From contig JANSYR010000016.1 in the NCBI GenBank assembly GCA_024742285.1, positions 1 through 64,000 of the forward strand: DNA of 64,000 bases, in the 5' to 3' direction. The notes under the pieces were generated by a model that worked only from the letters and a program-made list of their open reading frames with translations, searched no databases and had not been told where the DNA came from. The translations under genes and the position numbers were made by a program. Numbering within the stretch: the first letter of the stretch is position 1; the number at the start of each line of letters is the position of its first letter. This document shows, in pieces, positions 3,999 to 8,185 of the stretch. The DNA comes from a bacterium. Its GTDB lineage: Bacteria > Myxococcota_A > UBA9160 > UBA4427.

Positions 3999-4128
3999 TC
4001 CCCCGAGAGCCGCACGAGGCATTTCCCTACACGGGACGGGCACCTCCCTCGGGAGGCGCACGCCGATTGCGCTCAAGCCCTTCGATGGCCACCGCCGATA
4101 CGAAGAGTAGACCGACGAGGAGTCGAAC

Positions 4129-4569
4129 ATGGGCAGAGCGCTTCGAAGGCATCGCACCGACACGCGAACGACCCCGCGCCTCCCCCTCTGCGCCCCGGTC
4201 TTCGTCACCACCGATGAAGGAAAGCCCGTGGCCCCGTTGGCGCGGACGGCCGAGATCGGCCTGGGCGGGCTGCGCCTGACCGCGGCCGAGGGCGTGGCGC
4301 CCGGCGCGCGTGTGCACGTCGCCGTGCGCCTGCCTTCGGGCCGGATCTTCGAGATCGACGGCCGAGTCGCCTGGTCGAGACAGACCCTCCACCCCGCTCT
4401 CTTCGGCACGCCCACGGGGCGGGACGACGACGCCGACCTCGGCATCGCCTTCGACCCCACCTGTGAAGAGGCGCTGCTGCCGATCGCCCGCCTCTTCGTT
4501 GCGCGAGACCAGGAGCGGATGCGGGCGAACCGGATCCGACGGATCCACGGGCTTCCGCTCCATGCTTGA
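4129..4569 (+). CDS. PilZ-domain protein
   Basis: A 146-aa protein that is essentially one PilZ domain. The N-terminal RxxxR-type segment (RRHRTDTRTTPRLPL) is followed by TAEIGLGGLRL, equivalent to the c-di-GMP-binding (D/N)xSxxG motif but degenerate (EIGLGG), then beta-barrel strands such as RVHVAVRLPSGRIFEIDGRV. PilZ proteins act as c-di-GMP effectors; whether this one still binds the ligand is open, given the altered motif. The start at 4129 has a GAGGA ribosome-binding site 8 nt upstream. It is divergent from the DUF4388 gene at 2661-3998, and a PilZ-DUF4388 fusion occurs at 51771-52997, suggesting a shared pathway. Confidence 0.82.
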   Translation: MGRALRRHRTDTRTTPRLPLCAPVFVTTDEGKPVAPLARTAEIGLGGLRLTAAEGVAPGARVHVAVRLPSGRIFEIDGRVAWSRQTLHPALFGTPTGRDDDADLGIAFDPTCEEALLPIARLFVARDQERMRANRIRRIHGLPLHA

Positions 4570-4605
4570 TCCGCGCGAACCCGACTGGGTATGCTTGCTC
4601 TTCCG

Positions 4606-4932
4606 ATGAGACCCCCCGGCACGTTCAAGCTTCTCGGCCGCGCCCGACGCAGGGAACGCGGCGAAACCGACGCCCTCGACCCGATGGCGCTTTGTGCCGG
4701 GCGTGGGGATCGCATCGTCGATTCCCTGCGCATGCAGATCCTCGACGGGGCCGAAGACCAGTCGCTCCGCATCCGCCAGATCTTCCACGATCCCAAGGAG
4801 ATCTTCCGCGTCGAGATCGACTGCCCCGACCAGAACTACCAGCGCACGACCCTGCTCGACCGCGATGCCCTGGAAGACCTCCTGGCAACGGACGACGTCC
4901 GCGAGAGGGTCCTGGATCAGTTACCCGACTGA
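4606..4932 (+). CDS. Small conserved-looking protein, function unknown
   Basis: I do not recognise this protein of about 108 aa. It is hydrophilic, with a basic start (MRPPGTFKLLGRARRRERGE) and a middle that looks like a real fold (VDSLRMQILDGAEDQSLRIRQIF, then FRVEIDCPDQNYQRTTLLDRD). No signal peptide or membrane segment is evident. An in-frame ATG at 4591 would add five residues. It begins 36 nt after the PilZ gene and may be co-transcribed with it. GC-rich hairpin repeats follow directly after its stop codon. Confidence 0.6.
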   Translation: MRPPGTFKLLGRARRRERGETDALDPMALCAGRGDRIVDSLRMQILDGAEDQSLRIRQIFHDPKEIFRVEIDCPDQNYQRTTLLDRDALEDLLATDDVRERVLDQLPD

Positions 4933-4934
4933 TT

Positions 4935-5206
4935 TTGGTCGGCGCTGCGCGCCTCGCGACGCGCGCTTCGCGGCGCGCGTCTTGCGCTGAGGGCTCCGTC
5001 TATCCGACTGACGTCGGTCGGCGCTGCGCGCCTCGCGACGCGCGCTTTGCGGCGCGCGTCTTGCGCTGAGGGCTCCGTCTACCCGACTGACGTCGGTCGG
5101 CGCGCCGTCGAAGCCGCGCTTCCCGCGCGCGGTGCCCGAACGCGCCCCGCGCCGCGAGCGCAAGAGACGCGCGCCAAAGCGCGTCTCGCGAGGCGCCTTG
5201 CGCCGA
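4935..5206. repeat. 79-bp tandem repeat of a GC-rich hairpin module, plus an inverted copy
   Basis: Two full units begin at 4937 and 5016, and a third is cut short at 5095 (period 79 bp). Each carries GACGCGCGC-TTYGCG-GCGCGCGTC, a 9-bp stem with a 6-nt loop, followed by TTGCGCT. A diverged copy lies in the opposite orientation at about 5157-5206 (GAGACGCG-CGCCAAAG-CGCGTCTC). The array fills the space between a rightward gene and leftward tRNA-Leu. A further copy lies at 20355-20410. This behaves like a REP-type palindromic repeat and probably works as a terminator for both sides. Confidence 0.85.
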
Positions 5207-5216
5207 TCAGAAACGG

Positions 5217-5298
5217 TGCCCGGGGCAGGACTCGAACCTGCACGGCCAGAGGCCAGATGATTTTAAGTCACCCGCGTTTACCATTTCGCCACCCGGGC
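5217..5298 (-). tRNA. tRNA-Leu (anticodon TAA)
   Basis: An 82-nt class II tRNA with acceptor stem GCCCGGG/CCCGGGC. The anticodon stem-loop GGTGA-CTTAAAA-TCATC gives anticodon TAA, and a variable arm and T-loop GGTTCGAGTCC follow. A TAGAAT -10-like box lies just upstream (5307-5312). Downstream on its own strand is the 8-bp hairpin at about 5165-5190, a possible terminator. Confidence 0.95.
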
Positions 5299-5385
5299 CC
5301 GGCTCCATTCTATCCCGTCGGCTCTCCGGACGCCGAACCGGAGACGATCCTCCGAGTCCGCTCGGCGCGACGGTCGAACCGACAC

Positions 5386-5414
5386 TTGACGGCGTCGACG
5401 ACGACGCGAATAAT
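5386..5414 (+). promoter_or_regulatory. Strong sigma-70-type promoter of the asd leader
   Basis: TTGACG (5386-5391), a 17-nt spacer and AATAAT (5409-5414) give 5/6 matches to both boxes at ideal spacing. This stands out in such a GC-rich sequence. The predicted start is near 5421-5422, which coincides with the ATG at 5422, so the leader ORF would be read from a leaderless or nearly leaderless transcript. Confidence 0.8.
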
Positions 5415-5421
5415 GCCGCCG

Positions 5422-5505
5422 ATGCAGACCGCTTCCCTACGCCACACGGGTGCCGAGCCTGAGATCGCCGTCACGACGACGACGACGACGGACACGTCCG
5501 CCTAG
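5422..5505 (+). CDS. Candidate threonine leader peptide of asd
   Basis: A 27-codon ORF whose tail reads IAVTTTTTTDTSA-stop. Six ACG threonine codons run from 5473 to 5490, and a seventh lies at 5494-5496. Runs of codons for a regulated end product are the hallmark of leader peptides such as E. coli thrL. It sits between a strong promoter and a perfect terminator hairpin (5534-5567) directly ahead of asd, which makes the semialdehyde precursor of threonine, lysine and methionine. I chose ATG 5422 because the in-frame ATG at 5413 lies inside the -10 box. No Shine-Dalgarno is visible, which fits leaderless initiation. No protein function is expected. Confidence 0.65.
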   Translation: MQTASLRHTGAEPEIAVTTTTTTDTSA

Positions 5506-5570
5506 CGAACCGGAAGCGCAGCCCCGATCACCTGCAACGCCCTCCCGGTCCGCCGGGAGGGCGTTGCTCG
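5505..5570 (+). terminator. Attenuator: terminator hairpin with a competing antiterminator pairing
   Basis: Bases 5534-5548 (GCAACGCCCTCCCGG) pair perfectly with 5553-5567 around a TCCG loop, giving a 15-bp GC-rich stem followed by TCGTTT. The sequence GCGAACCGG (5505-5513), starting at the last base of the leader stop codon, can pair with CCGGTCCGC (5545-5553) over 8 of 9 bases, which would disrupt the terminator. A ribosome stalled on the Thr codons would leave 5505-5513 free; a ribosome at the stop codon would cover it. The weak T-tract is a caveat. Confidence 0.65.
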
Positions 5571-5618
5571 TTTCGGGGCCCTGTCGGGCGCCGAAACGCC
5601 CCACGACAGGAGTCCACC

Positions 5619-6677
5619 ATGACCGCATCCTTCCGCGATCTGCGCGATCGCCCCCTCACCGTCTGTGTCGTCGGCGCCACCGGCGCCGTCGGCGAAGTCC
5701 TCCTCTCCGTCCTCGAGGAGCGTCGCTTCCCGGTCGGGGCGCTCCGCCCCCTGGCGAGCGCCCGATCCGTCGGCGCCACGGTGCGCTTCGCGGGGCGCGA
5801 CCATCCCGTGCGCGAAGCGCGGCCCGAAGCGTTCGAGGGAGCCGACCTGGTCTTCTTCGCGGCGACCGGCGAACTCTCGAAGAGCCTCGCTCCCGAGGCG
5901 GCCGAACGCGGTGCGATCGCGATCGACAAGTCCAACACCTGGCGCATGCACGAGCACGTGCCGCTCGTCGTTCCGGAGATCAACGCCGATGCCGCGCTCG
6001 GCCATCGAGGCATCATCGCCTGTCCGAACTGCACGACCATCGGCCTCGTGATGGCCCTCGAGCCGATCCGGCGTGCCGCGGGGCTCGAAGAGATCGTCGT
6101 GACGACCCTCCAGGCCGCTTCCGGTGCCGGCCGGGACGGACTCGACGAGCTCGAGGCCCAGCAGGCGGCGCTCGCCAGTGGTGCCTCGCCCGAAGCCGAG
6201 GTCTTCCCGGCCCCCCTCGCGAACAACCCCCTGCCCCTCTGCGAACGATTCCTCGAGAACGGCTACTCGACCGAGGAGCAGAAGCTCCGCCAGGAGACGC
6301 GCAAGATCTTCGACCTGCCGTCGCTTCCGATCGCGATGACCTGCGTGCGGGTCCCCGTCCCGGTTGGACATGCCGCGACGGCGCTCGTGCGGACGACCCA
6401 CCCGCTCGACGCCGAAGAGGCACAGCGGGCAATCGCAGGCTTCGAGGGCGTCGAGCTCGTCGACGATCCGGCCGAGAACCTCTTTCCCACCACGCGCGAC
6501 GTCGTCGGCCGAGACGAAGTCCTCGTCGGGCGCGTCCGACGGGACCTCGATTCCGAGCGCCTCTGGCTCTGGGAGGTCTCCGACAACCTCCGAAAGGGCG
6601 CGGCCACGAACGCGGTCCAGATCGCCGAGACCCTGCTGGCCGCGCCCCCGTCGTCGCAGGCGCCCGGTCCGTTCTGA
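5619..6677 (+). CDS. asd: Aspartate-semialdehyde dehydrogenase
   Basis: A 352-aa enzyme that reduces aspartyl-4-phosphate to aspartate-semialdehyde with NADPH, the branch point to lysine/diaminopimelate, threonine and methionine. The Rossmann motif VCVVGATGAVGEVLLSVLEE lies near residues 15-34. The catalytic cysteine is C138 in ACPNCTT, and the substrate-binding part contains LQAASGAGRDGLDEL. The length is normal. The ATG at 5619 has AGGAG about 8 nt upstream. The leader peptide and terminator hairpin upstream suggest threonine-responsive attenuation. A bidirectional hairpin (6744-6777) ends the gene. Confidence 0.96.
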   Translation: MTASFRDLRDRPLTVCVVGATGAVGEVLLSVLEERRFPVGALRPLASARSVGATVRFAGRDHPVREARPEAFEGADLVFFAATGELSKSLAPEAAERGAIAIDKSNTWRMHEHVPLVVPEINADAALGHRGIIACPNCTTIGLVMALEPIRRAAGLEEIVVTTLQAASGAGRDGLDELEAQQAALASGASPEAEVFPAPLANNPLPLCERFLENGYSTEEQKLRQETRKIFDLPSLPIAMTCVRVPVPVGHAATALVRTTHPLDAEEAQRAIAGFEGVELVDDPAENLFPTTRDVVGRDEVLVGRVRRDLDSERLWLWEVSDNLRKGAATNAVQIAETLLAAPPSSQAPGPF

Positions 6678-6743
6678 CGCCCGTGGCTCCGGTCCGCGGC
6701 CGCGATCGCGACCCATGCCGCCGTCCCCGATCGCGCACGAACG

Positions 6744-6777
6744 ACGCCCCCGTCGGGCGCATACCCGACGGGGGCGT
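6744..6777. terminator. Bidirectional terminator between asd and the cupin gene
   Basis: ACGCCCCCGTCGGG (6744-6757) pairs perfectly with CCCGACGGGGGCGT (6764-6777) around a 6-nt loop. It lies between two convergent genes, so it can serve both. The T-tracts are weak, as is common in very GC-rich genomes. Confidence 0.8.
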
Positions 6778-6783
6778 TCATCG

Positions 6784-7170
6784 TCACGTGCCCTTGAGCT
6801 CGACGAGGACCTCGCGGTAGGGCCGGGTGCCGATGTTCACGGCCCATTCCAACCCGCCCTTCGGCACGGCCACGGTATTGCCCTCGGCGGGCAGCTCGAC
6901 CACGACCGGGTCGCCGGCGCCCTCCGGAAACACCCCGGCGATCAGGTCTCCGGAGAAGATCGCCAGGTAGTAGTCGTGCTCGTGGCGATGGAGGGCGCTC
7001 GACTCTCCCGGCTCGAGCCGCATCTCCCAGATCCGCACCCGATCGTCTTCGAAGAGGATCCGATCGGCGATGGTCCCGATCTCGTCTGCGGCGTGCGCCT
7101 CGCGGAACGCCTCGAGCCGGGCGAGCTGCGCGGCGGTCGGCGTCACGTATCGGGGCGAAGTATGAATCAT
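6784..7170 (-). CDS. Small cupin-domain protein
   Basis: A 128-aa single-domain cupin. The first cupin motif is visible as EPGESSALHRHEHDYYLAIFSGDL, with His residues placed to bind a metal, and the second lies around EGNTVAVPKGGLEWAVNIGTRPYREVLVEL. The substrate is not predictable. The ATG at 7170 (MIHTSPRYV) is followed by a soluble sequence with no signal peptide. Its neighbours are a decayed NTF2-like/SDR pair upstream on the same strand and asd converging from the other side. Confidence 0.8.
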   Translation of the reverse strand: MIHTSPRYVTPTAAQLARLEAFREAHAADEIGTIADRILFEDDRVRIWEMRLEPGESSALHRHEHDYYLAIFSGDLIAGVFPEGAGDPVVVELPAEGNTVAVPKGGLEWAVNIGTRPYREVLVELKGT

Positions 7171-7265
7171 CGAGCACCTCCCTCGTACGCATCGTACCGG
7201 GTCGGGCCGCGCGTCGGCAGGCACCTCGCCTTCGCTCCCGGTTCCTGTCGGAACAGGCGCCCTCT

Positions 7266-7601
7266 TCAGAGCGGGTCGACGCGAAGACGCTCCAGACGGG
7301 TCTCTGCGATGTACCCCCTTCCGTCTCGGCGAACGTACTTCTCGTGGTCGTGACCGAAGCCCTGGAGACCGACGCGCTTTCCGTCCTCGGCCGGAGGCCA
7401 CTCGACGTTCGAACATGGCCCAGATTCCGTTCGCCACGTCGGAGCCGTGGCACGCTCTTCGTCCATCCAATCGACTGCCGCCATCATCCAGCCGTACCGC
7501 TCGAGGTCGTCGTAGCAGATCCCGCCGTGCGTGACGGTGCAGGACTCGTCGGCTTCGAGGTCGACGAGGAGATTCCGGATCGCCCGTTCCGGGGAGACCA
7601 C
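7266..7601 (-). CDS. NTF2/SnoaL-like protein, probably an incomplete remnant
   Basis: A 111-aa ORF. Its start (MVSPERAIRNLLVDLEADES) and end (HDHEKYVRRDGRGYIAETRLERLRVD) resemble the first and last elements of SnoaL/NTF2-like proteins, but the middle is short and unlike the family. It overlaps the 3' part of the decayed SDR frame upstream. SDR plus SnoaL-like pairs are common in steroid and xenobiotic pathways, so both may be remains of one small operon. The family assignment is by pattern only. Confidence 0.45.
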   Translation of the reverse strand: MVSPERAIRNLLVDLEADESCTVTHGGICYDDLERYGWMMAAVDWMDEERATAPTWRTESGPCSNVEWPPAEDGKRVGLQGFGHDHEKYVRRDGRGYIAETRLERLRVDPL

Positions 7602-7619
7602 GTGGTCCGGCTCGGCGGG

Positions 7620-8185
7620 TCGATGCGCGTGCTAGCAGCCACGTCGCCCTCGCGGGCACCCGTCGCCCGCAGCCCCGGAGGCCGTGCCTCGGCGCTGCGC
7701 TCAAGGTGCCCGGTCAGCATGTCGCCGGGGAAGAGCAGGCTCCCTCCGATTCCTGCGTCCACGAGCGCGTGGCGAAGCGTCCCGCCGAAGCTCATGACCG
7801 CGAGCCTACAGGTCTGGTCGGCCATCATCCTCACCGCGGGCGCGAGGACGCTCAGCGAAGCGGTGAGCAGAACGCGTCGGTAGCCGTCCCGCGCCCGGAT
7901 AGAGGGCAGAAACGCGAGCACGATTCGGTTCGAGCCACGCCCGTTCACGTCGAGCACGAACAGCCAGTCATCGTTCGTCAGCCGGTCGATCGCACCGAAC
8001 TGCTGGACGCCAACGTTGGCGCAGAGGATGTCACAGCCTCCGAGCGCCGATTCGACATCCGAGGCGCTTCGCACGTCGACCCGGCCGGCCGCGTTCGACA
8101 CCCCGTGTCGGTCGGCGATCTCGGACGCCGTGGCGATGGCGTCCGGTTCGAAGCGGATCCGAGTGTGGGTTTCCCGACGCGCCAC
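7620..8185 (-). pseudogene. Decayed short-chain dehydrogenase/reductase (5'-truncated)
   Basis: The frame aligns with the body of an SDR: SNAAGRVDVRSASDVESALG, then DILCANVGVQQFGAIDRLTN, then VLDVNGRGSNRIVLAFLPSI and GIGGSLLFPGDMLTGH. The N-terminal TGxxxGxG nucleotide-binding motif is missing, because the frame opens only at about the third strand. At the catalytic site the usual YxxxK reads DQTCR, so both Tyr and Lys are lost. The true 5' part is absent from the 100 bases before 8288. I therefore call it a pseudogene with approximate limits. Confidence 0.6.

Follow-up and report, generated by a model that had tools for sequence, protein, structure and literature searches.

What purpose is served by the interval between a promoter and asd, the gene for aspartate-semialdehyde dehydrogenase, when that interval holds a short open reading frame (ORF) with six threonine codons in a row and a perfect hairpin behind it? 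A preliminary description of the 64,000-nucleotide stretch analyzed here (the window) proposed that asd may be under threonine attenuation in this lineage, with a leader ORF whose message begins at its own start codon. The analysis below examines this proposal in the window, in related genomes, and against other explanations of the same features.

Layout of the asd leader and its conservation

The features on which the argument turns, in the order of transcription, are as follows.

5386 to 5414, forward strand: promoter, TTGACG (5386–5391), a 17-nt spacer and AATAAT (5409–5414); from sequence, 10 of 12 consensus positions
5422 to 5505, forward strand: putative leaderless leader ORF, ATG to TAG, 27 codons, encoding MQTASLRHTGAEPEIAVTTTTTTDTSA and a stop; from sequence
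5430 to 5436, forward strand: possible segment 1, CGCTTCC, perfectly complementary to GGAAGCG at 5512–5518; tentative
5473 to 5496, forward strand: predicted regulatory threonine codons, ACG six times (5473–5490), GAC, ACG (5494–5496); from sequence and threonine enrichment in relatives
5509 to 5519, forward strand: segment 2, 5' strand of the antiterminator, ACCGGAAGCGC, with the core CCGGAAG at 5510–5516, 4 nt past the stop codon; YCGGA(A)G in relatives
5534 to 5548, forward strand: segment 3, 5' arm of the terminator, GCAACGCCCTCCCGG, with segment 2 as alternative partner; from folding and a duplex test
5553 to 5567, forward strand: segment 4, 3' arm of the terminator, CCGGGAGGGCGTTGC; from folding and covariation
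5568 to 5575, forward strand: poor U-tract behind the terminator hairpin, TCGTTTCG; from sequence
5608 to 5612, forward strand: AGGAG, likely ribosome-binding site of asd; from sequence
5619 to 6677, forward strand: asd, asd_B type, 352 amino acids; TIGR01296 at 352.8 bits (cut-off 324.2), PRK14874 at 392.8 bits
6744 to 6777, forward strand: hairpin ACGCCCCCGTCGGG...CCCGACGGGGGCGT, where the asd transcript probably ends; from sequence

The near-consensus promoter of the preliminary description was confirmed base by base; the 27-codon ORF with six consecutive ACG codons and a seventh further on, and the perfect 15-bp hairpin followed by asd, were likewise found as described, with TIGR01296 identifying the gene. 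The promoter is the sole sigma70-like site within positions 4800–7000 (2.2 kb; 0.1 expected). A tRNA gene (5217–5298, reverse strand, 62.7 bits) diverges from asd and has its end about 90 nt from this promoter. Directly upstream of the tRNA gene, positions 4925–5095 hold two head-to-tail copies of a GC-rich unit of about 82 bp (CCCGACTGA..GTCGGTCGGCGCTGCGCGCC...GCTGAGGGCTCCGTCTA).

The window stems from a Myxococcota-like lineage of the UBA9160 type. Its full layout recurs upstream of asd in 11 further genomes with asd proteins 61–72% identical to that of the window (loci L002, L004, L006, L007, L009, L031, L033, L034, L044, L046, and L050; the named relatives are metagenome-assembled genomes, or MAGs, labelled Deltaproteobacteria UBA9160, Myxococcales or Myxococcota). 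The order in these relatives is a TTGACA-type −35 element, a −10 element, ATG, a threonine-rich ORF of 23–64 codons, the stop, YCGGA(A)G, a spacer, the hairpin CCCTTCCG-loop-CGGGAGGGCG, and a T tract; L044 is an exception, with YCGGAAG lying within the final leader codons. Conservation of the threonine run and the hairpins in relatives had been set beforehand as a check. That check left threonine attenuation of asd in this lineage unrefuted; the threonine-rich leader, the position of the stop, the antiterminator strand, and the terminator recur in the 11 genomes, with compensating base changes, and support the proposal.

In all 11 relatives a TTGAC-type −35 element with a spacer of 16–17 nt occupies the matching position ahead of asd. 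The distance from the −10 element to the leader ATG is 6–10 nt in 12 of 12 genomes (7 nt in the window), against a chance of 4.4% per site of finding an ATG in this slot at a random point of these loci, although the count is not unbiased, promoters having been selected by score and ORFs partly by threonine content. Such spacing is in line with an RNA whose first nucleotides are the start codon. The leader ORF is thus predicted to be leaderless, starting at the RNA 5' end or 1 nt past it, which supports the corresponding suggestion of the preliminary description. An in-frame ATG at 5413 overlaps the −10 element and could not be on a transcript begun at 5421/5422.

The window-type asd and its close orthologues (61–72% identical) occur in 25 of the 80 genomes of the order and also in the sister order; the eight remaining genomes in the genus of the window lack the gene. 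Ahead of orthologous asd genes in two families (f4 and f10) and in the sister order, the leader is missing. On the asd tree the leader is clustered, its presence needing 3 changes compared with 10.8 for shuffled labels. An exact pattern (CGGAAG..CCTTCCG..GGAGGGC) gave five matches over the order, four of them asd leaders, and a control pattern gave three; the exact pattern was too strict, and a covariance model built on the 3' portion of the scaffold was used instead. The strongest matches to this model among the 80 genomes are the asd leaders, and within the window only the asd leader site, together with its own complement, matches at low E. A detector of threonine leaders with hairpins, which recovers 9 of the 11 known asd leaders, found none ahead of 30 hom–thrC, 25 asd_gamma, and 8 asd_EA loci (0 of 63), and the phylum's more remote asd genes showed no threonine leader with a hairpin. 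Two further loci, L016 (genome G008, same genus) and L304 (G345:C1:45896-45962, sister order), carry a threonine-rich leader on the same scaffold before a different asd type, 46–47% identical to the window asd and 66% identical between the two.

The genome of the window also encodes a second catalytic asd, of the gamma type (G000:C15:58750-59859, 544.8 bits), so that loss of the window asd need not be fatal, and the attenuated gene may be a threonine-dedicated isozyme in this genome. In six leader-bearing genomes (G014, G015, G016, G028, G059, and G060; MAGs, incomplete) the leader-bearing asd was the sole catalytic type found. Another candidate, G000:C2:118751-119755, was rejected as an asd: it lacks the catalytic Cys motif, falls below all asd cut-offs, and is 30% identical. 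This paralogue sits between leuB and truA, an arrangement that recurs in the family's other genomes.

Threonine codons and competing RNA structures

Threonine accounts for 9 of the 27 codons of the window leader and lysine for none. The (ACG)6 run at 5473–5490 is unique within the 64 kb, and among 721 short ORFs the leader is the only locus with at least five threonines per eight codons. Over the 12 genomes, threonine makes up 82 of the 240 final 20 leader residues (34%), compared to 5.6% in the asd proteins (P ~8e-42 assuming independent residues, a figure weakened by the kinship of the genomes). Lysine is also enriched in these positions (8.3% vs 2.4% in asd proteins; 3.5-fold, P ~1.5e-6), and isoleucine and methionine enrichment is absent from the final 20 residues of the 12 leaders. 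Lysine codons are enriched amid the threonine codons of L004, L007, L031, L050, and others, and by their codon content some relatives' leaders may sense lysine besides threonine. All four threonine codons are used in the 12 leaders (ACG 65, ACC 23, ACT 7, ACA 5), which indicates selection on the amino acid rather than on a DNA repeat. The asd genes proper favor ACC (128) over ACG (79); the leaders instead prefer ACG.

The fold of the 198-nt leader surpasses those of its shuffles by 5.5 standard deviations. The terminator hairpin (5534–5548 with 5553–5567) comprises 15 perfect pairs at −33.3 kcal/mol; a terminator scan did not report it. Most relatives have 4–9 consecutive T directly behind the stem, and the L016 leader is without a T tract. 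Where the U-tract is poor, as in the window, or absent, as in L016, termination may be inefficient or achieved otherwise.

One 5' arm has two rival partners, the terminator 3' arm and the YCGGAAGG strand. The preliminary description had drawn the competing structure between GCGAACCGG (5505–5513) and CCGGTCCGC (5545–5553). These segments do pair in 8 of 9 positions, but the pairing that relatives keep joins CCGGAAG(G), past the stop, to C(C)TTCCGG of the 5' arm; the CCGG core is common to both versions. When the 30 nt after the stop were tested against the terminator 5' arm, the duplex energies of the 12 genomes summed to −170.5 kcal/mol, compared with −110.8 (sd 7.5) in dinucleotide shuffles, none of 2000 of which reached the observed sum. 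Five genomes (L002, L007, L033, L034, and L050) are not significant singly, and the case for the antiterminator therefore rests on the whole set. When the three segments were aligned without gaps, the terminator came out 96% paired, and 3 of its pairs vary in both partners (covariation reached by 0 of 500 shuffles); the antiterminator came out 83% paired, with 2 pairs that vary in both partners (score reached by 11 of 500). In the window the antiterminator (about −12 kcal/mol) is nowhere near as stable as the terminator and could thus win only kinetically.

The position of the ribosome would decide which of these structures is available. Under the assumption that its leading edge reaches 13 nt past the first nucleotide of the codon in the A-site, a ribosome with its A-site on any threonine codon of the run leaves 5510–5516 free, and the exposed RNA folds as the antiterminator; with the A-site on the stop codon, the ribosome covers 5510–5516 and the antiterminator does not form. 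Segment 1 might add a further layer. Tentatively, its pairing would mask segment 2 when the leader is untranslated; across the 12 leaders, the sum observed for pairing of the CGCTTCC/GGAAGCG type was reached by 7 of 1000 shuffle sets, a weak excess over chance, with few leaders significant singly.

The observed anatomy and its conservation, the threonine enrichment specific to asd leaders, the competing pairings, and the fitting geometry point to one reading, drawn from sequence comparison: the asd leader is, with high likelihood, a ribosome-mediated transcription attenuator that responds to threonine by way of charged tRNA-Thr. RNA polymerase would start at about 5421–5422, and the leader message would open with the AUG of the leader ORF. 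With ample charged tRNA-Thr, the ribosome would reach the stop codon and cover CCGGAAG (5510–5516), 5534–5548 would fold with 5553–5567, and transcription would end before asd. With charged tRNA-Thr scarce, the ribosome would stall on the ACG run, and the exposed CCGGAAG would pair with the emerging 5' arm and block the terminator, so that asd would be transcribed.

A second set of genes and the rival explanations

A model search over the order and the phylum uncovered this scaffold at nine loci in several families, each time upstream of a DrrA-like ABC-2 exporter ATPase (L172, L173, L174, L294, L295, L296, L299, L301, and L300, the last truncated by the end of its contig ahead of the ORF). 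There the scaffold consists of a putative leaderless ORF, CCGGAAG, and a terminator with CCTTCCGG. Exporter orthologues that are at least 60% identical carry it in 9 of 9 cases; three orthologues at 53% identity are absent from the covariance-model matches. The exporter leaders tend to be hydrophobic near their end, with no single dominant amino acid, and serve as a natural control: they contain 5.6% threonine compared to 34% before asd (Fisher p 6e-13). The bmrB leader of the BmrCD multidrug exporter in Bacillus subtilis acts by ribosome-mediated transcription attenuation with ribosome-targeting antibiotics as the signal (PMC4191407). It parallels the exporter regulon here, although it is unrelated in sequence and comes from another phylum. 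By this analogy the exporter leaders may sense ribosome-targeting drugs and are possibly drug- or arrest-sensing.

A broader model would suggest that this phylum reuses one compact scaffold (TTGACA promoter, ORF beginning at the 5' end, stop, CCGGAAGG, CCCTTCCGG hairpin) as a module with interchangeable sensor ORFs, threonine-rich before at least two asd types and hydrophobic and non-threonine, perhaps antibiotic- or arrest-sensing, before the DrrA-like exporter; the sole sensor would be the ribosome that translates the leaderless message. We regard this model as evenly balanced between being right and wrong.

The exporter loci also bear on what the asd leader senses. It might respond to translation generally, or to threonine and lysine jointly, with read-through whenever the ribosome slows, for whatever reason, close to the 3' end of the ORF, comparable to drug-exporter leaders. 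Use of the same scaffold by exporter leaders that show no bias to a single amino acid, and the lysine enrichment of the asd leaders, speak for such a response; threonine is nevertheless the dominant enrichment and is specific to the asd leaders, the window leader is without any lysine, and a threonine signal is sensible for a gene whose enzyme makes a threonine precursor. On this evidence a general response is unlikely. It is less probable still that the hairpin affects translation or RNA stability, for instance through a hidden initiation site or a processing site, rather than the end of transcription. The weak U-tract of the window and its absence in L016 would be explained in that way, but the hairpin ends about 40 nt short of the asd ribosome-binding site, which belongs to neither structure, and runs of T4–T9 stand directly behind the stem in most relatives.

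The threonine run could, in principle, be an (ACG)n trinucleotide repeat that drifts in GC-rich DNA and regulates nothing, with an ordinary terminator behind it. In the window the repeat is perfect, and a GAC/CGA-rich stretch lies a short way upstream, within the promoter spacer. Relatives, however, have threonine clusters of mixed codons with other residues in between, read in frame with an ATG 6–10 nt past the −10 element and with the stop beside YCGGA(A)G, and (ACG)6 occurs once in the 64 kb. The codon diversity of the relatives led to rejection of this microsatellite explanation, which the comparative data contradict and which has hardly any probability left. Threonine-responsive attenuation remains the preferred reading.

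Relation to known systems and implications

In the enteric thr attenuator (thrL), a leader ORF rich in threonine codons and its stop are followed by competing antiterminator and intrinsic-terminator hairpins, with charged tRNA-Thr as the signal. The myxobacterial leader resembles it in its threonine-rich ORF, stop, and competing hairpins. It differs in that asd would be regulated rather than thrABC, in having no enrichment of isoleucine codons, in placing its ATG at the predicted transcript start, and in its compact scaffold with the antiterminator strand directly past the stop; the hom–thrC operons checked in this order are without such a leader. The Rfam Thr leader had no match up to E=10 in positions 4000–8000 of the window, and searches of three relatives gave no relevant leader or riboswitch match at gathering cut-offs. 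In other bacteria, asd is controlled by the lysine riboswitch (L box), which senses lysine directly and has no leader ORF. The element described here likewise lies ahead of asd but contains a leader ORF, and the Rfam search of positions 4000–8000 found no riboswitch.

Leader messages that begin with the start codon have precedents. The trpL leader RNA (rnTrpL) of Sinorhizobium meliloti starts with the AUG of its leader ORF (PMC7298713), and leuL, trpL, ilvL, and thrL of Streptomyces lividans encode leaderless leader peptides (PMC8079986); the Streptomyces thrL has two threonine codons, lies ahead of thrS, and shows no clear terminator (PMC8079986). The AUG-first RNA predicted here is of the same kind, with other genes and in another phylum. 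The main text of a 2010 attenuator survey of 302 species names neither asd nor Deltaproteobacteria nor Myxococcus (PMC2965389). No description of threonine attenuation of asd was found in the literature searched, which excludes most subscription journals; a mention in the 2004 survey by Vitreschak et al. of attenuators in proteobacteria is possible. The kind of mechanism is therefore known, being thrL-like and with leaderless leaders documented; the target gene, the lineage, and the shared scaffold look new.

Judged from its leader, the bacterium very probably makes asd mainly under threonine shortage. This would be an odd arrangement, with control of a branch point by threonine alone, as asd feeds threonine, methionine, and lysine as well as cell-wall diaminopimelate. 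If the reading is true, amino-acid attenuation reaches an uncultured myxobacterial lineage and asd, it operates on a leaderless message, and one scaffold serves two regulons.
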